Program-made: the position numbers and the translations under genes
The notes under the pieces: model-generated
The model's input: the letters and a program-made list of their open reading frames with translations, nothing else
What the model was told of the DNA's origin: nothing
Database searches by the model: none
Part shown: one piece after another, positions 5,477-26,469 of the stretch
Layout: every line of letters starts with the position of its first letter
How positions within the stretch are numbered: position 1 is the first letter of the stretch
Source: Octadecabacter sp. B2R22
GTDB taxonomy: Bacteria > Pseudomonadota > Alphaproteobacteria > Rhodobacterales > Rhodobacteraceae
DNA: 64,000 nt
Direction: 5' to 3'
NCBI RefSeq assembly: GCF_018861045.1
Contig: NZ_JAHKQJ010000007.1
Span: 434,001-498,000, forward strand

Positions 5477-6580
5477 ATGGACATGGTGAACTACGGAATT
5501 ATTGGCTGCGGTATGATGGCCCACGAGCACATCCAAAATATCGCATTGCTGCCCCACGGCCGTGTGTCGGTTGTTTTTGATCCTGTGCGCGAACTGGCCG
5601 AAGCCGCCGCCGAACTGGCAGGTCATTGCGGGGCCGCACCAGCCCATATTGCAGATACGCTTGAGGACCTGCTGGCACATGCGGATTTGGATGCTGTTGT
5701 GATCGTTAGCCCGAACCACATTCACGCCGAACAGTTGCGCCAAATCGTTGCGACGCGCCCATTGCCCATCCTGTGTGAAAAACCCCTCTATACCGATCCG
5801 TCAGACAAAGCAGAGCTCATTTCTCTTTTTGAGGAGTATCCCCATCCCGTTTGGATCGCGATGGAATACCGCTACATGCCACCCGTTGCGGCGCTGATTG
5901 AACAAGCCGAATCTGCGACAGGCGGGATCGCGATGCTCACGATCCGCGAACACCGCTTTCCGTTCTTGCCCAAGATCGGCGACTGGAACCGGTTCAACGA
6001 AAACACAGGCGGCACTTTGGTTGAAAAATGTTGCCACTTCTTTGACCTTATGCGTTTGATCTTGAAGGCAGAACCTGTGCGGGTCATGGCCAGTGCGGGG
6101 CAGACACTGAACCACAAAGACGAGACTTATGATGGACGTGTCCCTGACATTTGGGACAACGGCTATGTGATTGTTGATTTCGACAATGGCAGCCGCGCGA
6201 TGCTTGAGCTTTGCATGTTCGCCGAGGGCGCGCAGTACCAAGAAGAAATCAGCGCCGTTGGGCCAAAGGGTAAGATCGAATGCCGCGTTCCGGGACCAGG
6301 GCGGTTCTGGCCTACCGATCTTGGCCCTGCGCCGATACCGCAATTGATTGTCAGCCCGCGCGCGCCCAAAGGGCCGACTTTGGTCGAAATTCCCGTTGAT
6401 CCGACGCTTCTGGAAGCAGGCGATCACAACGGATCGACGTTCTACCAACACCAGCGGTTCAACGCCGTTGTGCGCGGGCAGGGTGCAGTCGAGGTGACAG
6501 TCAGCGATGGCGCCAAAGCCGTGGCCATGGGGATCGCGGCACAAGAAAGCGCGAAAACGGGGCAGGCCGTGGACCTTTAG
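5477..6580 (+). CDS. Gfo/Idh/MocA-family NAD(P)-dependent oxidoreductase
   Basis: A 367-residue dehydrogenase. The Rossmann dinucleotide motif GIIGCGMMAH is at residues 7-16, the family hallmark Glu101-Lys102-Pro103 (CEKPLYTD) carries the catalytic lysine, and TGGTLVEKCCHFFDL contains the conserved substrate-site residues of the C-terminal domain. Members act on sugars, inositols, biliverdin and similar compounds. It starts 5 bp after the GntR stop and is therefore co-transcribed with its likely regulator. It may process the same unknown substrate as the divergent monooxygenase operon. Confidence 0.85.
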   Translation: MDMVNYGIIGCGMMAHEHIQNIALLPHGRVSVVFDPVRELAEAAAELAGHCGAAPAHIADTLEDLLAHADLDAVVIVSPNHIHAEQLRQIVATRPLPILCEKPLYTDPSDKAELISLFEEYPHPVWIAMEYRYMPPVAALIEQAESATGGIAMLTIREHRFPFLPKIGDWNRFNENTGGTLVEKCCHFFDLMRLILKAEPVRVMASAGQTLNHKDETYDGRVPDIWDNGYVIVDFDNGSRAMLELCMFAEGAQYQEEISAVGPKGKIECRVPGPGRFWPTDLGPAPIPQLIVSPRAPKGPTLVEIPVDPTLLEAGDHNGSTFYQHQRFNAVVRGQGAVEVTVSDGAKAVAMGIAAQESAKTGQAVDL

Positions 6581-6587
6581 GGATCAG

Positions 6588-6660
6588 CGGCTAACGTCCG
6601 CAATGCGGACTTTTAAGACATTCGCTGCTTTGCAGCCAATGGCCGGTTTTGGTGCATCGC
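6588..6660. repeat. Degenerate intergenic repeat, copy A
   Basis: A noncoding stretch after the dehydrogenase gene contains the hairpin-like GTCCGCAATGCGGAC followed by AGACATTCGCTGC and a GTTTTGGTGCA block. The same word sets recur in intergenic DNA near 9.8, 10.9 and 29.3 kb. The rest of the 221-bp gap up to 6801 shows no convincing gene. Confidence 0.5.
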
Positions 6661-6801
6661 GACGCAGCTTAACATGCGCAGTTCGTTCTCAATACAAGCT
6701 TCCGGCAAGGAGCGATATTGTTGGTGACAAACGTTTCAGACGGTCTGCGCACCGACAATCGACCTTTCATGCGCTGCATTCATCACATTGATTTAGCCCT
6801 G

Positions 6802-7485
6802 TCATAGAAGCTCTTGCAAATGCCATGCGAGAACTTGGTTGCTAGACATCACCGGCTTGCCAACTTTATCCTGAATCTTGTCGAGGACATCAAGCGTACG
6901 CAAGTTTGTGCATGACAGGAATATAGCGTCAAAATTTCCCTTAAGATTTGCGGCAGCATCATGCACGCTAGATGGGTCGATCCGAACGACATTATACTCT
7001 AGGGGTTCATCAAAACTCGCGAAGGCTGTGACATTGATTCCATTTGCAGCCAGTACATCGCGCAGCTTTTGTGAGACTTCACGGATATAAGGACTGATCA
7101 TGCCAAGCCGTGTGATGTTCTGCGCCCGGCATGTGGCGATCAGGGCGGAGACCGGCTCTGTCACGGCTGCCGTTGTGGCACCTTTCCGGATCAGTTCGGC
7201 GATTTTGGGACGTCCAATTTCGGCAGACCCCGACGTGCACCCATAGGCCACAGCATCAAATTTAATGCCCGCAGGAAATAGCTGCGCTGCACCCGTCAAC
7301 GACTGTGTCATCGCTGCCAACGTCTTGGTCGAGACTGAGGTGCCTGACGGCACCCGAGACACCAGAACGTTGACATTGTCTGGCAAGATCCTGCGCATGT
7401 CTGCCTCTATTGTCTCATCCGCTTGTAAGACGATCAATCCAATTGTCTTCCATGTCGTTGGGATGATTTTGTAGGGCAATGCCAT
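6802..7485 (-). CDS. Asp/Glu racemase superfamily protein (maleate isomerase/AMDase-like)
   Basis: A 227-residue protein of the cofactor-independent racemase/decarboxylase fold. Two active-site cysteines are evident, Cys83 in AYGCTSGSAEIG and Cys192 in LSCTNLRTLDVLD, the pattern of maleate cis-trans isomerase, arylmalonate decarboxylase and the EutA-type proteins of ectoine utilisation. Its ATG overlaps the stop of the upstream M24 gene by one base (TAATG). Last gene of a three-gene operon with a peptidase-like hydrolase and a PLP lyase, so it probably acts on an amino-acid-derived dicarboxylate or amide. The specific reaction is not assigned. Confidence 0.75.
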   Translation of the reverse strand: MALPYKIIPTTWKTIGLIVLQADETIEADMRRILPDNVNVLVSRVPSGTSVSTKTLAAMTQSLTGAAQLFPAGIKFDAVAYGCTSGSAEIGRPKIAELIRKGATTAAVTEPVSALIATCRAQNITRLGMISPYIREVSQKLRDVLAANGINVTAFASFDEPLEYNVVRIDPSSVHDAAANLKGNFDAIFLSCTNLRTLDVLDKIQDKVGKPVMSSNQVLAWHLQELL

Positions 7486-8642
7486 TAAATAACTCGCATT
7501 TTTTCAGGTTGGAAACGCGATAGGAATTGTGGGGTGTTAACAGTGATCACAATATTTTCCTCGTGAACCATCATTTTGTCGCCAAAGACTACGACGCCGG
7601 GTTCCAAGGTCAGGACCATCCCCGCAGCCAAAGGCGTATGATCATCTGGAATAATTGATGGCCATTCCGTCAGTTGCATCCCCACACCATGCCCCAGACG
7701 CCCAGCATCAGAGCCGGATGCATCCGGATTCACCACATCATTCATCGCATAAAATAGGTCCGCCATCGTCGCGCCAGGGCGCGCAATATCAAAGGCTGCT
7801 TGGGTGGCCCGCATAAGCGTGTCATGCGCCGACTGCACCTGTTGCGACGGAGGTCCAACCGAGAAGTTACGGTCAAAATCACAAAAGTATCCGTCTGTGA
7901 CCAAACCCGTATCCAGCATGAGAACATCCCCGTTTTCTAAAGGATCATCTGCTGCTGGTGAAATGACATCAGCGTATCCACCCTGTCCGGCTGCACCTGC
8001 AAGATAGGCGACCCAGTCAGCCCCTTCATCAAGACACAGCGCCTGAAACTTTCGAAAGATCTGCGATAGCGGGACGCCAGCCTGCGCGATCTCCGCCACG
8101 CGATCAAACGCGCGTTCGGCAATGTCGCATGACGTTTGGATCTTTAGAACTTCCGCGTCAGACTTGATCATGCGGATATTACGCACGATGGCCGCATCAC
8201 TCGCAAACATACGCGACTTAAGCCTCTGCTGTAAACGGTTGAGGTCCGAAAATGGCATCCGCACATGAGTTTCCATCTGGTCTGGAATGCCAATGCGCTC
8301 TCCAGCAGACGTTACCTCTGTCAATGTGTCTGCCAGCAAGCCAATGCCATCGTCATCGTAGTTAGGCGCGCGCCAGGTCCGGACGTCCGTTATCCACGTC
8401 TGCCCCATCAAATGCGCACCGATCGCCGGTATAACGGCGATTGGCTGGCCTTGCGCTGGGATCACAACAAACCAAGGCCGTGTCGGGCTTTCCCAAAAAC
8501 GTGTCAAAAAACCGGTGAAGTAGCGCACATCTGGCTCTGTCGTGAGCAATAGCGCGGAAAGGTCTGCCTTTTTCATCAAGGCCTGTGCTTTCGCAAGTCG
8601 ATGTGCAAACTCTGGCATCGCAAATCCCCGCGTTTGGATCAT
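7485..8642 (-). CDS. M24-family metallopeptidase (Xaa-Pro peptidase/ectoine hydrolase-like)
   Basis: A 385-residue pita-bread hydrolase with N-terminal creatinase-like and C-terminal M24 domains. All five dinuclear metal ligands are visible: the two Asp in LDTGLVTDGYFCDFDRNF, His in GHGVGMQLTEWP, Glu in LTLEPGVVV and Glu in VHEENIVI. The start at 8642 is preferred because it forms an ATGA overlap with the upstream lyase stop; an alternative ATG at 8618 begins MPEFAHRL. Relatives cleave Xaa-Pro peptides, creatine or ectoine. Operon context with a PLP lyase and a racemase suggests catabolism of a modified amino acid rather than general peptide turnover. Confidence 0.8.
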   Translation of the reverse strand: MIQTRGFAMPEFAHRLAKAQALMKKADLSALLLTTEPDVRYFTGFLTRFWESPTRPWFVVIPAQGQPIAVIPAIGAHLMGQTWITDVRTWRAPNYDDDGIGLLADTLTEVTSAGERIGIPDQMETHVRMPFSDLNRLQQRLKSRMFASDAAIVRNIRMIKSDAEVLKIQTSCDIAERAFDRVAEIAQAGVPLSQIFRKFQALCLDEGADWVAYLAGAAGQGGYADVISPAADDPLENGDVLMLDTGLVTDGYFCDFDRNFSVGPPSQQVQSAHDTLMRATQAAFDIARPGATMADLFYAMNDVVNPDASGSDAGRLGHGVGMQLTEWPSIIPDDHTPLAAGMVLTLEPGVVVFGDKMMVHEENIVITVNTPQFLSRFQPEKMRVI

Positions 8643-21550: not shown

Positions 21551-21661
21551 ACAGGACAGAGACAATACGAGGGGCTGCACAAGGATTACTGGCGAAATTG
21601 GCCACAATCGTGCGTTTTTCGATGCCCTATGCCGAGTGCGACGAATAAAGGTTGGAACGAG

Positions 21662-22693
21662 ATGCGAAAGTTCTACGAGCAGTACCACTATTACAACCGC
21701 CCGATCTCCAAGGTGGGACCACGCTACATCCCTGAATATGTTACGGATTTTGTGAAGTGGAATGAACAGAACCTCGCCGAGACCACGAACGTCAAAGACG
21801 GCCGTGACTACATGACGGCACAAAGCATTCTGAAGACAAAGCAGTTTCGCCAGATCGCACGTCGCGGGATCGGCGGCTATTGTAACAGCATCGGTGAGTG
21901 GCCTGATTTCTATCAGCCGAAATCCTTTGCCGCGATGAATGTTCTGCACGCGATCACCATGCCAATGCCCAAGGTCCAGCCGGCAGATAAGCTCCACGTG
22001 GGTGAGTTCATTCCATCTTCGCTGTCCGATCAGGTCAGCACCGCGCAGGTCGTGCAGTCGTGGGACAGCGGTAACGATGTGAATTTCGATGGCATCACGC
22101 CGGGTGTTTACTATTTCAAGGCGAACCACGGCAGTGCGTATAACATCAAAGTCACCATTCCTTGCTCTGATGAGGAAATGACCCATATCCGCAGTGAGGC
22201 GGATCGTTGGCTTAACACCTCATACGGTGAAAACTCGTGCCAGTGGTGGTATCGCTTTATCGATCGCAAAGTTTTCCTTGAGAAAAGCCTGACCTCTAAT
22301 CCAGACGATGGCCCGCTTCAGGATTTCCGCTTTCACATCATTAACGGCCGCTCGGCTTTGTTACAGTTGGACGTGGGCCTTGGCACCGAAGACCGTCATA
22401 ACCCCGTTTATGACGAAAAGCTGAACTACATGCCCCATGAATTCCTGCGGGAAAACCTGAACGAAGTGCCGCTGCCCGAGATGACCGAGGCCGCACAAGC
22501 CGCAGCGATCAAACTCGGGTCACCGTTCCAGTATTGCCGCGTTGATCTTTATGTTCAGAACAAATCAATCATTTTGGGCGAGCTGACGTTCTTGCCAAAT
22601 GCAGGCCGTCGCGCCGTGCAATCGGCTGAGTTGGACGAATATCTCTGTTCATTCTGGGATGGAAAGATGCCAGAAGTCACGCGGATCACCTAG
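21662..22693 (+). CDS. TupA-like ATP-grasp fold protein
   Basis: A 343-residue protein of the teichuronopeptide-biosynthesis TupA-like ATP-grasp group. Seen are YYFKANHGSAYNIKV (nucleotide-binding Lys and Gly-Ser loop), FLEKSLTSNPDDGPLQDFRFHIINGRSA, and the Mg-binding YCRVDLYVQNKSIILGELTFLPNAG. Such enzymes ligate amino acids or related groups onto glycans or peptides in cell-envelope polymers. The ATG at 21662 has AAGG 11-14 nt upstream; an in-frame ATG at 21629 is the alternative. It converges on a sulfotransferase/glycosyltransferase operon, suggesting a shared surface-glycan role. Confidence 0.8.
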   Translation: MRKFYEQYHYYNRPISKVGPRYIPEYVTDFVKWNEQNLAETTNVKDGRDYMTAQSILKTKQFRQIARRGIGGYCNSIGEWPDFYQPKSFAAMNVLHAITMPMPKVQPADKLHVGEFIPSSLSDQVSTAQVVQSWDSGNDVNFDGITPGVYYFKANHGSAYNIKVTIPCSDEEMTHIRSEADRWLNTSYGENSCQWWYRFIDRKVFLEKSLTSNPDDGPLQDFRFHIINGRSALLQLDVGLGTEDRHNPVYDEKLNYMPHEFLRENLNEVPLPEMTEAAQAAAIKLGSPFQYCRVDLYVQNKSIILGELTFLPNAGRRAVQSAELDEYLCSFWDGKMPEVTRIT

Positions 22694-22727: not shown

Positions 22728-22751
22728 ATCGCGGCCCTAGGCCGCGATTTC
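22728..22751. terminator. Hairpin between convergent ATP-grasp and sulfotransferase genes
   Basis: A perfect 9-bp stem (ATCGCGGCC / GGCCGCGAT) has a 3-nt loop that is the sulfotransferase stop codon. A TTTCTTTT tract follows on the plus strand, so it probably terminates the ATP-grasp transcript. The stem also encodes the last residues of the sulfotransferase. Confidence 0.7.
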
Positions 22752-23564
22752 TTTTGCGGGCAAACATTCGTTCACCCAGTCAGAGTTTTCAGCATAGCCA
22801 AGCGCCTTCAGCGCGTCTGCGTAGCGTTCCGCATAAGGTTCGGCGATCTCGCGCGGCAGTTTGGTAACCCACTGCGCCTTTTTGCCGGATGATACATGCA
22901 ACGCGACACGATCTTCACGATCATCCTTCTTGGCCAAGCCGCCAAACAAGGACAGGTCCCAATAGCTTTGCACCGCCTTGTCGATATCGATGCCATCAAT
23001 GTTGAACTCTTCAAGCATCCCACGGAAGATCGCGCAGTCCGTATCCTCAATCAGGTCTTCATACTTGATGTCGGCCACACGATCATTTGGCACACCATAT
23101 TCATACGGCCAGTTGAGCATTTCCTGCACGGTCTTGTCGTGTTTGTTCTCCATCTCGAACATCAAACGCGCATGATCGTCGGGCAGGGCGTTCAGATGGT
23201 CCTGATAGTTCTTTCCGCCCCATTCATCGCGCTTTTCACGCAGGAATTTTTCATTCCCCAGCGGCGCAATCCGGTGGTAGCGCATGCCAGACAGCAGCAC
23301 ATCGCGCGGGTCACGAATTATATGGATGAACCGCGAATGGCCCATCTCCAACAACTGTTGTGGAAATGAAGACGACCAATTGACGATGATCTGCGGACCC
23401 GTTTCAGCGGCCTCCGCCAGTTTCTTGGCGCGGTAACACTGCATGAACGGCACGTTTTGGTCATTGCTGATCGCGCGCAGAACTTTGCGCATCCAAATTG
23501 TACCCGTCTTGTGGTGGGTGCCGACGCAAAGAAAGCGTGCGTCTGTTTTGGTCACAGGCGTCAT
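22737..23564 (-). CDS. Sulfotransferase domain protein
   Basis: A 275-residue PAPS-dependent sulfotransferase. The 5'-phosphosulfate loop is CVGTHHKTGTIWMRKVL at about 13-29, and the 3'-phosphate block is HIIRDPRDVLLSGMRYHRI near 82-100. C-terminal KKAQWVTKLPREIAEPYAERY fits the family. The acceptor is probably a carbohydrate or small molecule. The start overlaps the glycosyltransferase stop in an ATGA, so it is the last gene of a three-gene operon. Confidence 0.88.
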   Translation of the reverse strand: MTPVTKTDARFLCVGTHHKTGTIWMRKVLRAISNDQNVPFMQCYRAKKLAEAAETGPQIIVNWSSSFPQQLLEMGHSRFIHIIRDPRDVLLSGMRYHRIAPLGNEKFLREKRDEWGGKNYQDHLNALPDDHARLMFEMENKHDKTVQEMLNWPYEYGVPNDRVADIKYEDLIEDTDCAIFRGMLEEFNIDGIDIDKAVQSYWDLSLFGGLAKKDDREDRVALHVSSGKKAQWVTKLPREIAEPYAERYADALKALGYAENSDWVNECLPAKEIAA

Positions 23565-24583
23565 GAGTCCTTGTCCTTCATCGGGGTAAAATGGCCGGTA
23601 TCAATGAATGTGCGGAATTCAGGAACCGTAAGCTGGTAATCTAGGACACGCTGGGAACAATCCACACACGCGCGGGCAAGGGCGGACAGATCGGCGTCTT
23701 TCAACCATTCATCCATTTGCGCGCGCACGCTATCTGTCGGGATCGTTGTGTCTTCATGGGTGTTGATGTCGTATTTGTCCCAATACTCCATGTCGATGCG
23801 GTCTTTGTTCTTTGAGTTGGCTGTACCGCGCAGACGTTTGAGCAAGAAATCTTCACGCGATTTGATCGCGTAGTGGTTCACTTGCGCGAATTCATTGGTG
23901 ACGTTCTCGGAATTACCGCGCCAGCCCTTTTCAAGATATTTGTCGCCCATAGGTTTGCCTGCGGCGTTGGTCCAGGTGACCATGCCGGGCGTGACTTCAA
24001 TCTTACGATCAAACTTGGGGCGGTGAACGCCGAAGTAGCTGAACTTTTCGGGGCGGAACAATGTTTTGAAGCCCCACACGAGGCCGTTTTCAGGGTCCTC
24101 AAAGCTGGACCCTTTGGTGAAACGTTCCGTGACCAGTTCCCCTTTAAACGGGTCGATGGACATTTTGGACTGCCCTTGGCTGCCCATCAGGCGCCAGTTC
24201 ACAGAGATCGCGTCAGGGCTGCCGCAGGCGTCAATCAACGCATCAATACTGCGATCACCAACATGGATGTTCAGAAATTCATCCGCATCCACGATCAGCA
24301 CCCAATCGGCGGATTTGACCCACTCCAACTTGTTGGCACGGCTATAGGCAGATCGCTGCGGATCCATGCGCGGACCTTGCGGGTTGTCGTAGTGTTTCAC
24401 GACGCCCATCTGGTCCAAGCGGTTCAGCATCAGATTGGTGCCGTCCGTGCAATCATTTGAAAAGATGCAAAAGTCGGTGATTCCGATGGATTTATGATAG
24501 GCCAGCCATTCCAGCAGATAGGGGCCTTCGTTCTTCATCGTTGAGACAAGAACTTTACGGCCAGTATTGGGAGCAGTGCTCAT
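23561..24583 (-). CDS. Glycosyltransferase family 2-like protein
   Basis: A 340-residue putative glycosyltransferase of the Glyco_tranf_2_4 type. It opens KVLVSTMKNEGPYLLEWLAYHKSIG, then the nucleotide-sugar region FCIFSNDCTDGTNLML, and the metal-binding DxD in WVLIVDADEFLNI. The later block FAQVNHYAIKSREDFLLKRLRG is shared with the upstream gene, showing the two are paralogues. Overlaps both neighbours by 4 bp. Confidence 0.88.
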   Translation of the reverse strand: MSTAPNTGRKVLVSTMKNEGPYLLEWLAYHKSIGITDFCIFSNDCTDGTNLMLNRLDQMGVVKHYDNPQGPRMDPQRSAYSRANKLEWVKSADWVLIVDADEFLNIHVGDRSIDALIDACGSPDAISVNWRLMGSQGQSKMSIDPFKGELVTERFTKGSSFEDPENGLVWGFKTLFRPEKFSYFGVHRPKFDRKIEVTPGMVTWTNAAGKPMGDKYLEKGWRGNSENVTNEFAQVNHYAIKSREDFLLKRLRGTANSKNKDRIDMEYWDKYDINTHEDTTIPTDSVRAQMDEWLKDADLSALARACVDCSQRVLDYQLTVPEFRTFIDTGHFTPMKDKDS

Positions 24584-26469
24584 TTGGATGTCGCTTTCTT
24601 GGGCGCGACGGTACTTTTGGTCGCTGGTTTCTTGGCGGTCGTTTTGGCAGTGCTTGTGGTCTTTGCAGCGGTTTTCGTCGCAGACTTCTTTGCCGTCGTC
24701 GATTTTGCAGCTGCTGTTTTAGTCGTGGTGGCTTTCGCTGCTGTGGACTTGGTCGTCGTCGCCTTGGAGGCCGCAGGCTTAGCCGGTGTTTTGCGCCGCG
24801 AGGTGGTGCTTGGCTTCTTCGCAGGTGTTTTACGAGCAGCCGGTTTCTTGGCCGCTGGTTTCTTCGCTGCCGGCTTTTTCGGTGCGGGCTTCTTTGGGGC
24901 CGGTTTCTTTGCTGCCACATCAGTTGGAACTGGAACCGTATCCTGCGGGCTTTCGATTGTGGTAGACGCCTCAACCGTTGAGGCCGCGACGATCTTGTCA
25001 ATCGACGGGGCAGGTTGGTCGAGGTCGATCGTTGCAGTACTAGGGGCTTCGCTCACAGGCTTGGGTGCAGCTGCCATTGCTTTTCGCGCGGCTTCGGCCT
25101 TTGCGATAAGGCGTGCACTGGACGCGTCATTCGGGTCCGCAGCTTGGGCGGCCAATGCGATCTTTTGGGTGCGTTCATTCATCAATGGCACGCCAAGTCC
25201 CGCCGCCGCATCGGTATTCAGAAACGGATTGTCCAGCGTGTCCCCTTTGGACGACTTATCCTTCAACTGGTGCGCATCGAGCTTCTCTTCCGCGTTTTCG
25301 CCAGCCGCTTCAAGCAACGCTTTACGCGTATCGCCCTTTTTGGCGGTCTGGGTCTGAGCGATCATCTTGGCGATCTTTTTGTCCGGAATGCCTGCGGCTT
25401 GCAGTTCTTTGACCTTTTGCTGCCATTCTTTTGGCAGGTGCTGGACGAACAGAACCTCATCGAGCTTATCAAGCGGAACTTCGGATGCTTCTTTCAGATC
25501 CTTCAGCCATTGGTCGTATTCACCGGATGTCCGCAGCATTTCAACGCGATTAGCGTGAAATTCTAGTGCTTTGTCCTGTAGCTCGCGCATGATCGGATCA
25601 GAAAGGATTTGCGCCATTTTCTTTTTGGTGCCGCGCGCGTGGCGGGTCACGTTCATGTGCTCTTCTTCGTTGCGATCAAACAAAGCAAAGTAGGCGGCGT
25701 TATATTTGTCTTCTTTGTTGTTTACGTTGCCCCGCACGCGGCGCAGCAAATAAGCCTCATAGGACTTAACAGCGTAATGGTTCAGTTCGGCCCATTTGTA
25801 GCCAAGTGTAGGCTTGGTAGAGCGCCAGCCTGACAGCGAAAACTCGTCAGGCATCGGATTGCCGGACCCGTTCAGCCATTTTTGATCAAATAAAAGTTTA
25901 GCGTTTGCAGGTTCTTGCTTGGCTTTCTTAATGTGCGGACGGTGGATGCCCAGCTTAATGTCGCGGTAGGGTTTGAAGATCGTCTTCACGCCCCAACCCT
26001 TTTTGAACATGTCAGGGGCCGCGCGGGTGTAGTTCTCGATCACCAGACCGGGGTTCCAGTCGGTGATGTCATTGGCCCCAAAGAACCGCCAGGTGATCGC
26101 CATGGCATCAGCGTCTTCATCCATCCTTTCAACAAGGTCACTGACCCAGCCGCGCCCGACCTTAACGGACAGGAATTCATCGGCATCCATCGTCAGGATC
26201 CATTCGGAATCCATGACTTCGTCGTTCTTGGTGGCCAGCATCAGCGCGTTTGGTTGCGGCTTCTTGTCTTCGGGGACTTCGTTTTCAAAGTGCTGAACCC
26301 AACCCAATTCTTGCAGGCGGACCAACATCTTATCCGTGCCATCACCGCAGTTGTTGGTGTAAACGCAGATATTATCGAAACCGATATGTTTGTGGTAGGC
26401 GACCCATTCGACAAGTGAATGGCCTTCATCCTTCATCATAGAAAGGATGGTGTACGTATGTTTGGCCAT
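24580..26469 (-). CDS. Glycosyltransferase family 2-like protein fused to a histone-H1-like Lys/Ala/Pro-rich tail
   Basis: A 629-residue protein in three parts. Residues 1-300 are a Glyco_tranf_2_4 domain (TILSMMKDEGHSLVEWVAYH, CVYTNNCGDGTDKML, WILTMDADEFLSV with the DxD, and NHYAVKSYEAYLLRRVRGN). About 330-515 is a charged helical linker containing an AAGIPDKKIAKMI motif. Residues 519-629 are an extremely basic, low-complexity tail of Lys, Ala, Pro and Thr with repeated AKKPAAKKP words, like bacterial histone H1-like proteins. First gene of the operon with a second glycosyltransferase and a sulfotransferase. The frame is continuous, so the fusion is not an obvious frameshift artefact. Confidence 0.85.
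   Translation of the reverse strand: MAKHTYTILSMMKDEGHSLVEWVAYHKHIGFDNICVYTNNCGDGTDKMLVRLQELGWVQHFENEVPEDKKPQPNALMLATKNDEVMDSEWILTMDADEFLSVKVGRGWVSDLVERMDEDADAMAITWRFFGANDITDWNPGLVIENYTRAAPDMFKKGWGVKTIFKPYRDIKLGIHRPHIKKAKQEPANAKLLFDQKWLNGSGNPMPDEFSLSGWRSTKPTLGYKWAELNHYAVKSYEAYLLRRVRGNVNNKEDKYNAAYFALFDRNEEEHMNVTRHARGTKKKMAQILSDPIMRELQDKALEFHANRVEMLRTSGEYDQWLKDLKEASEVPLDKLDEVLFVQHLPKEWQQKVKELQAAGIPDKKIAKMIAQTQTAKKGDTRKALLEAAGENAEEKLDAHQLKDKSSKGDTLDNPFLNTDAAAGLGVPLMNERTQKIALAAQAADPNDASSARLIAKAEAARKAMAAAPKPVSEAPSTATIDLDQPAPSIDKIVAASTVEASTTIESPQDTVPVPTDVAAKKPAPKKPAPKKPAAKKPAAKKPAARKTPAKKPSTTSRRKTPAKPAASKATTTKSTAAKATTTKTAAAKSTTAKKSATKTAAKTTSTAKTTAKKPATKSTVAPKKATSK

Follow-up and report, generated by a model that had tools for sequence, protein, structure and literature searches.

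The window examined here, a stretch of 64,000 nucleotides from Octadecabacter sp. B2R22 (Rhodobacteraceae; contig NZ_JAHKQJ010000007.1, positions 434,001 to 498,000), carries on its minus strand a gene for a predicted glycosyltransferase with a long basic C-terminal tail, here called GT1, next to genes for a second glycosyltransferase (GT2) and a sulfotransferase (ST). A preliminary description, made from the sequence alone, had reported one uninterrupted frame joining a DxD-containing glycosyltransferase to a basic tail. This was confirmed on the minus strand at 24580-26469, where a protein of 629 amino acids with a DAD motif is encoded. The gene and its parts are the following.

24580..26469, minus strand: GT1, glycosyltransferase with basic tail, 629 amino acids (ATG-to-TGA frame, Pfam)
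25345..26469, minus strand: GT1 catalytic domain and following helices, residues 1-375 (GT-A fold, GT92-like)
26179..26187, minus strand: DAD (DxD) motif, residues 95-97 (D95 and D97 invariant)
25042..25344, minus strand: helical extension, residues 376-476 (helices 420-423, 428-443 and 449-467 in the AlphaFold model)
24919..25041, minus strand: pre-tail motif, residues 477-517 (TATIDLDQPAPSIDKIVAASTxEASTTIESPxDTVP region), directly before the tail
24583..24918, minus strand: basic tail, residues 518-629, 112 amino acids with 34 Lys and Arg and no Asp or Glu (composition; predicted disordered)

Two Pfam families matched the N-terminal part of GT1, Glyco_tranf_2_4 (PF13704) over residues 13-105 with 66.8 bits for a cut-off of 27.5, and Glyco_transf_92 (PF01697) over residues 17-184 with 30.6 bits for a cut-off of 23. 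All 39 sequences aligned had both D95 and D97, and the AlphaFold model displayed a GT-A fold whose nearest match was a GT92 enzyme; a search of solved structures with the GT1 sequence returned no meaningful match. GT1 is predicted to be a GT-A glycosyltransferase of GT92/PF13704 type that depends on a metal ion and would transfer a sugar from a nucleotide donor. GalS1 of poplar, which we take to be a GT92 member acting as a beta-1,4-galactan synthase, shares 11% identity with GT1, which differs from it in being bacterial, in its basic tail and in sharing an operon with another glycosyltransferase and a sulfotransferase. The helical extension is kept among the genus orthologues of GT1 and occupies the position where the GT1-GT2 linker starts in relatives that have both enzymes fused. 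The pre-tail motif is conserved among tailed orthologues and some tailless ones (e.g. L112 and L114); a search of the same genome for a further copy, which might have hinted at a shared partner, found none besides GT1.

The tail had been described as 111 residues of almost only Lys, Ala, Pro and Thr; the composition was correct (102 of the 119 residues from position 511 onward), and the length is 112. When the GT1 protein was shuffled 20,000 times, none of the shuffles reached 34 Lys and Arg in an acid-free run, the best having 26. The tail is predicted to be disordered, with block means of the AlphaFold confidence score (pLDDT, predicted local distance difference test) below 40 and values below 50 at residues 498-622 and 626-629. 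Synonymous codons are scrambled in the tail-coding DNA (Lys AAA 15 and AAG 16; the four Ala codons 5, 6, 9 and 10), which indicates that the repeats are old and lie at the peptide level rather than being fresh DNA repeats or slippage; a 15-bp DNA repeat in this region was only 76% matched. Likeness to histone H1, as first proposed, holds for the composition and does not extend to the family models: the HC2 family (PF07382) gave 30 bits in a protein scan, below the cut-off of 40, and NCBIfam NF038053 gave 18.1 bits, far under its cut-off of 80. A six-frame genome search placed the tail at 42.4 bits, just above the HC2 cut-off of 40, so that the HC2 likeness is borderline and compositional. An antisense hydrophobic frame of 257 codons opposite the tail (window 24584-25357, plus strand) was read as a shadow of the Lys, Ala and Pro codons and not as a gene.

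The loci analysed were the best 80 of 283 relatives (Rhodobacterales); the L-numbered (L098-L154) and G-numbered sets of relatives overlap in many genomes, and their counts are kept separate. The nearest named relative was Octadecabacter algicola, whose GT1 matched at 98% over 400 amino acids. In ten GT1 proteins of the 80 loci, 17 or more Lys or Arg occurred in a stretch free of acidic residues; the next-best stretch among the rows listed had 10, and L164-L177 reached at most a net charge of +7 per 40 residues. Locus L105, with a masked tail (33 X), was left out of the tail counts and is labelled as tailed in the tree. A loose filter for acid-free basic stretches retained 16 of 2,900 open reading frames (at least 100 amino acids, from the 80 loci, window not included), ten of which were GT1 orthologues; the other six were judged spurious: five had no match among the four proteins of the cassette and its neighbour, and the sixth was an over-long upstream part of the L129 frame in which GT2 and ST are fused.

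Among 51 genomes, GT1 was matched at 1e-30 in 26, and an orthologue lay at the same place in 16 genomes of the genus group, window included. Twelve of these have one GT1 domain, and four (G001, G002, G003 and G017) have two in tandem with no long tail. Ten of the twelve carried 53-119 basic-tail residues after the TVP motif, one (G009) was masked, and one (G007) had 30 residues with a net charge of +4; leaving the masked one aside, ten of these 11 single-GT1 orthologues thus retain the tail. Counted as tailed were G010, where a contig end leaves linker and tail only, and G012/L151, which has broken frames in GT1 and ST. The tandem form without a long tail was also seen in Octadecabacter relatives at L127:6001-8604, L129:3294-5894 and L132:3048-6644, the last one having GT2 fused to the double GT1 as well (1,198 amino acids).

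With each genome counted once, 14 tail carriers were recovered (the window, L098, L099, L101-L104, L106-L108, L151, G005, G010 and G083), of which G083 belongs to another genus. The tail is mostly kept in close relatives and mostly lacking in more distant ones, and its composition shifts to Arg/Ser/Thr and Gly/Ser/Lys in Salibaculum. A search of 199 genomes of the family with the tail region found the window and G083 and missed G011, which is known to be tailed, so that its count gives no prevalence. On a tree of 66 GT1 cores (L122 and L151, with broken frames, the distant rows L155, L159 and L161, and L164-L177 left out), the 12 tailed rows, L105 included, need two changes versus the other labelled groups. 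Because unlabelled tailless rows (L100, L109, Ruegeria, Marivivens, Histidinibacterium) fall among the tailed ones, a gain plus a loss, or more than one gain, of the tail is needed.

Independent genomes have this frame with its tail as well, so an artefact of assembly or frame was rejected, and we give it practically no credence. The preliminary description would have been undermined by tailless close relatives combined with a tail traceable to misassembly or to recent recombination with an H1-like gene. Some close relatives do lack a long tail (L100 and the double-GT1 loci L127, L129 and L132); of misassembly or recent recombination there was no sign. A recent capture from the topoisomerase-like tail of the same genome was also rejected, as the best DNA match was only 75% over 83 bases and the codons are scrambled; an older descent from that tail is possible.

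GT1 is the first gene of a compact cassette, which is listed here with the convergent gene next to it.

23561..24583, minus strand: GT2, paralogous glycosyltransferase, 340 amino acids (P0002; Pfam), ATGA overlap with the GT1 stop
22737..23564, minus strand: ST, sulfotransferase of the 3'-phosphoadenosine 5'-phosphosulfate (PAPS) type, 275 amino acids (P0003; Sulfotransfer_1), ATGA overlap with the GT2 stop
24594..24600, minus strand: putative GT2 ribosome-binding site AAGAAAG within the last tail codons (conservation; function inferred)
21629..22693, plus strand: TupA-like ATP-grasp gene, convergent, outside the cassette (Pfam)

The operon with a sulfotransferase, as originally claimed, was upheld, the GT1-GT2 and GT2-ST frames overlapping by 4 bases each and P0003 matching Sulfotransfer_1 (31.9 bits for a cut-off of 22; Sulfotransfer_3 gave 25.6, below 27). 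ST aligned weakly to SULT1C3 over two short stretches, residues 12-49 and 74-102, and is predicted to be PAPS-dependent. GT1 and GT2 are 36% identical. AAGAAAG lies 10 bases before the GT2 start codon of the window and, judging from its position and conservation, probably serves as the ribosome-binding site of GT2. It has hardly changed in O. algicola and six further relatives; AAGAAAGC(G/A)AC is present in the window, L098-L103 and L105 and differs in L104 and two Salibaculum loci. The cassette and the TupA-like gene are flanked by a sarcosine oxidase gamma gene and an iron/manganese superoxide dismutase gene, and the same flanks appear in the open reading frame lists of G016 and G007, as judged by first residues. 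The slot of the TupA-like gene is occupied by a third, distant glycosyltransferase in a number of relatives.

Fusions of the cassette enzymes recurred among the relatives. GT1 and GT2 were found in one open frame in 18 of the 80 loci, none of them tailed, and the tail lies at the position of the linker of these fused forms. GT2 and ST shared one open frame in three loci.

L123:7365-9179: GT2-ST fused frame, 604 amino acids
L128:7710-9536: GT2-ST fused frame, 608 amino acids
L129:5680-7755: GT2-ST fused frame, 691 amino acids

Some fusions came from draft metagenome assemblies and others from named isolates (Nioella, Harenicola, Actibacterium, Tropicimonas), and the fused GT1 rows were scattered over several separate places of the GT1 tree. 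Because fusions recur, the three enzymes may share a complex or pathway, a circumstantial argument by which GT1, GT2 and ST probably work together. The AlphaFold model of a fused Nioella protein (L140) displayed two fairly well predicted domains joined by a low-confidence linker, with a pTM (predicted template modelling) score of 0.49. The two-domain GT-A synthases PmHS2 (heparosan synthase 2) and K4CP (chondroitin polymerase) are matched by GT1 far more weakly than GalS1; unlike in these, GT1 and GT2 are paralogous domains of one family, encoded by separate genes here and forming one chain only in the fused relatives. Related glycosyltransferases with a methyltransferase-like glycine motif in their C-terminal half were noticed in L166-L169, L171-L175 and L177 (about 6000-7800 in most), and the same arrangement in G029 (L048:466-2274); the motif, read by eye, is for example LEIGAGCGFLS in L175.

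The preliminary description had proposed asking whether tail presence tracks with the adjacent sulfotransferase, and it does not. Absence of ST or GT2 here means none within the DNA covered, roughly 6 kb to either side or less where a contig ended, with match thresholds of at least 40% identity for P0003 (ST) and at least 52% for P0002 (GT2). Ten of the 80 loci had a tail, a separate GT2 and an adjacent ST (split over two frames in L151); 26 were tailless with a separate GT2 (ST adjacent in 22, distant in 2, none in 2); 18 were tailless with GT1 and GT2 fused (ST adjacent in 3, none in 15); 25 had neither GT2 nor ST; and the masked L105 had ST adjacent. ST also adjoins the tailed GT1 in the window and in G083. 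All ten tailed loci have an adjacent ST, but so do 25 tailless ones. G005 keeps its tail (66 residues from TVP) though its ST match (G005:C2:3251580-3252308) holds 4 stops. The single case favouring a link is G007/L100, where ST is a 42-residue remnant (G007:C1:274066-274191) and the tail is mostly lost. Since ST mostly occurs without the tail and G005 keeps it, the association is no more than shared ancestry would give.

Tails of this kind are not confined to GT1. An HC2 search over 51 genomes gave 11 non-GT1 loci in the same family, and Pfam scanning of 10 of these frames identified six topoisomerases I, two NuoE-like 2Fe-2S proteins, one TatA/B-type membrane protein and one frame without Pfam match. 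Lys/Ala/Pro composition is consequently no mark of DNA binding alone in this family, as NuoE-like and TatA/B-type proteins carry such tails. The TatB-like proteins with Lys/Ala/Pro tails are found at L081:1630-2205 (Pfam TatA_B_E) and L082:1546-2106 (by likeness); in the NuoE-like thioredoxin-type proteins (L072:1300-2451 and L083:754-1887) the HC2-matching stretch is followed by a further shared C-terminal stretch.

According to two papers (PMC9239181, PMC10665949), AlgP is a granule-associated DNA-binding protein (polyphosphate granules and DNA), the PhaF tail is thought to bind DNA and thereby tether granules, and the HbhA tail binds DNA in vitro, with earlier reports of binding to sulfated glycoconjugates. 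A survey links lysine-rich low-complexity regions with DNA binding and Ser/Thr-rich ones with polysaccharide handling, which speaks rather for DNA (PMC6821194). Like GT1, the Pseudomonas proteins AlgP and PhaF, with KPAA-type tails, end in disordered Lys/Ala/Pro repeats attached to an N-terminal part that is unrelated, and Mycobacterium HbhA has a Lys/Pro/Ala-rich C-terminal tail. AlgP and PhaF are granule-associated and not known as enzymes, and HbhA is an adhesin and nucleoid protein with a shorter tail (residues 161-199) and no enzyme; GT1, in contrast, is a predicted enzyme whose repeats contain more Thr and are less regular than those of AlgP and PhaF. The GT1 tail resembles all three in being disordered (as predicted), Lys/Ala/Pro-rich and acid-free, a low-complexity likeness in which descent and convergence look the same. 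No description of such a tail on a glycosyltransferase or of a GT1-GT2-ST cassette appeared among the open-access papers listed.

Selection on the tail was looked at through the ratio of nonsynonymous to synonymous substitutions (dN/dS) and through its charge. Versus O. algicola, the 93 tail codons gave a dN/dS of 0.10, as against 0.041 for the linker ahead of the tail and 0.024 for the core; for the L102-L103 pair it was 0.15 over 50 tail codons. In 10 tails, the C-terminal 50 residues held 12-19 Lys and Arg and 0-1 Asp or Glu, compared to means of 8.3 and 2.8 after neutral drift from this tail simulated at 0.5 changes per site, a simulation which ignores repeat exchange, assumes one mutation pattern and serves as a guide only. 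The tail is apparently retained in its clade by charge rather than by sequence.

We tentatively favour the following reading, although we hold it at somewhat less than even. GT1 would probably sit in the cytoplasm, acting with GT2 and the sulfotransferase as an assembly on one glycan, and its unstructured polycationic C-terminus would lie where other species have the GT1-GT2 linker. The tail, accessory and outside catalysis, may serve as a non-specific electrostatic tether that concentrates the enzyme locally at a partner of negative charge; the likeliest such partners would be the anionic inner membrane with a lipid-linked acceptor, or the growing anionic glycan. This inference draws on the AlgP, PhaF and HbhA precedents and on the similar tails of non-DNA proteins. 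Docking on an anionic glycan, lipid or nucleic acid had been proposed from the start; polyanion binding is made plausible by these precedents, and the special connection with the sulfotransferase found no support.

Several results weigh against such a tether. The tail is dispensable, being cut to about 20 residues in L100 (the same genome as G007) and absent from most cassettes: of the 55 loci that have both GT1 and GT2, 44 are tailless and one has a masked tail. Of the seven pairs compared for dN/dS, four were saturated at silent sites in the tail, and the Salibaculum pair, at 0.79 over 75 codons, is only weakly constrained; the lack of acidic residues in the ten tails is partly built in, because these were picked as tailed. 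Docking of the tail on an acidic GT2 or ST was rejected, as mean net charges did not differ between tailed and tailless loci for GT2 (-6.4, n=9, and -6.3, n=43) and for ST (-3.3, n=9, and -3.0, n=25; L105, L122, L151 and too-short matches left out of both), so that there is no sign of a co-evolved docking face on either partner. A fixed packing of GT1 against GT2 was not seen in the fused L140 model, and no polysaccharide cluster, export or polymerase families were present among the 20 neighbours scanned with Pfam.

Much of this would also suit a nearly neutral low-complexity extension, growing and shrinking past the folded domain by repeat gain and loss and constrained only by the GT2 start region. 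Tail length varies from 53 to 119 residues among tailed genus members, L100 has lost nearly all of it, composition drifts in Salibaculum, where the pair is weakly constrained, most cassettes do without it, and repeat exchange could restore charge without selection. The low dN/dS of the two other pairs and the charge kept where the simulation predicts its loss (in tails picked as tailed) speak against it, as do the scrambled codons, which make the peptide pattern old and leave no fresh slippage; we consider this explanation unlikely, yet it deserves serious attention. The tail-coding region could also serve RNA or translation, its 3' end carrying the GT2 ribosome-binding site and the rest being a by-product. 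Conservation of AAGAAAGC(G/A)AC and of the ATGA overlap would fit, together with the survival of the last residues, VAPKKATPK, in L100, where most of the tail is lost. Such a role would account for only about the last 25 bases, whereas amino-acid constraint spans 93 tail codons, and it appears very improbable.

The two remaining candidates name a specific partner. To our knowledge there is no reason for a glycosyltransferase to sit on DNA, and a tether in which the tail would bind DNA or RNA non-specifically, as in AlgP, HbhA and (as thought) PhaF, seems quite improbable to us, all the more so as TatA/B-type and NuoE-like proteins of the family carry similar tails; in its favour are the resemblance to DNA-binding tails, the DNA binding in vitro reported for HbhA, the six topoisomerases I among the ten tailed frames scanned and the topoisomerase I-like frame (named by likeness) that carries such a tail in this very genome. 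Binding to the sulfated product of the adjacent ST, which would keep the enzyme on its chain, is distinctly unlikely. It agrees with the ST found next to every tailed GT1 (10 of 10 loci, the window and G083), with the joint reduction of ST and tail in L100/G007 and with the earlier reports on HbhA; it conflicts with the 25 tailless loci that have an adjacent ST (22 with a separate GT2 and 3 with GT1 and GT2 fused) and with the tail kept in G005 despite the stops in its ST match.

Returning to the electrostatic tether, a bolder version is that an undescribed cytoplasmic machine of Rhodobacteraceae, made of two paralogous GT92-type domains and a sulfotransferase, builds a sulfated glycan, in some cases with two of its enzymes in a single chain, and that in the Octadecabacter and Salibaculum lineages a disordered polycation replaces the covalent GT1-GT2 link and grips the growing anionic glycan or the membrane as a processivity clamp; we regard this as a long shot. 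A GT92-like enzyme with a histone-like tail is a new combination of known parts and no new kind. Lys/Ala/Pro tails are usually read as DNA-binding, and here one is found on a glycan-making enzyme, kept apparently by charge, which makes the GT1 tail a clean case in which to ask about the bacterial binding partners of such tails. The assembly suggested by the fusions may be a more useful result than the tail itself. The repeated joining of GT1 to GT2, and of GT2 to ST, suggests that marine bacteria possess an assembly of three enzymes, which might make a sulfated glycan.

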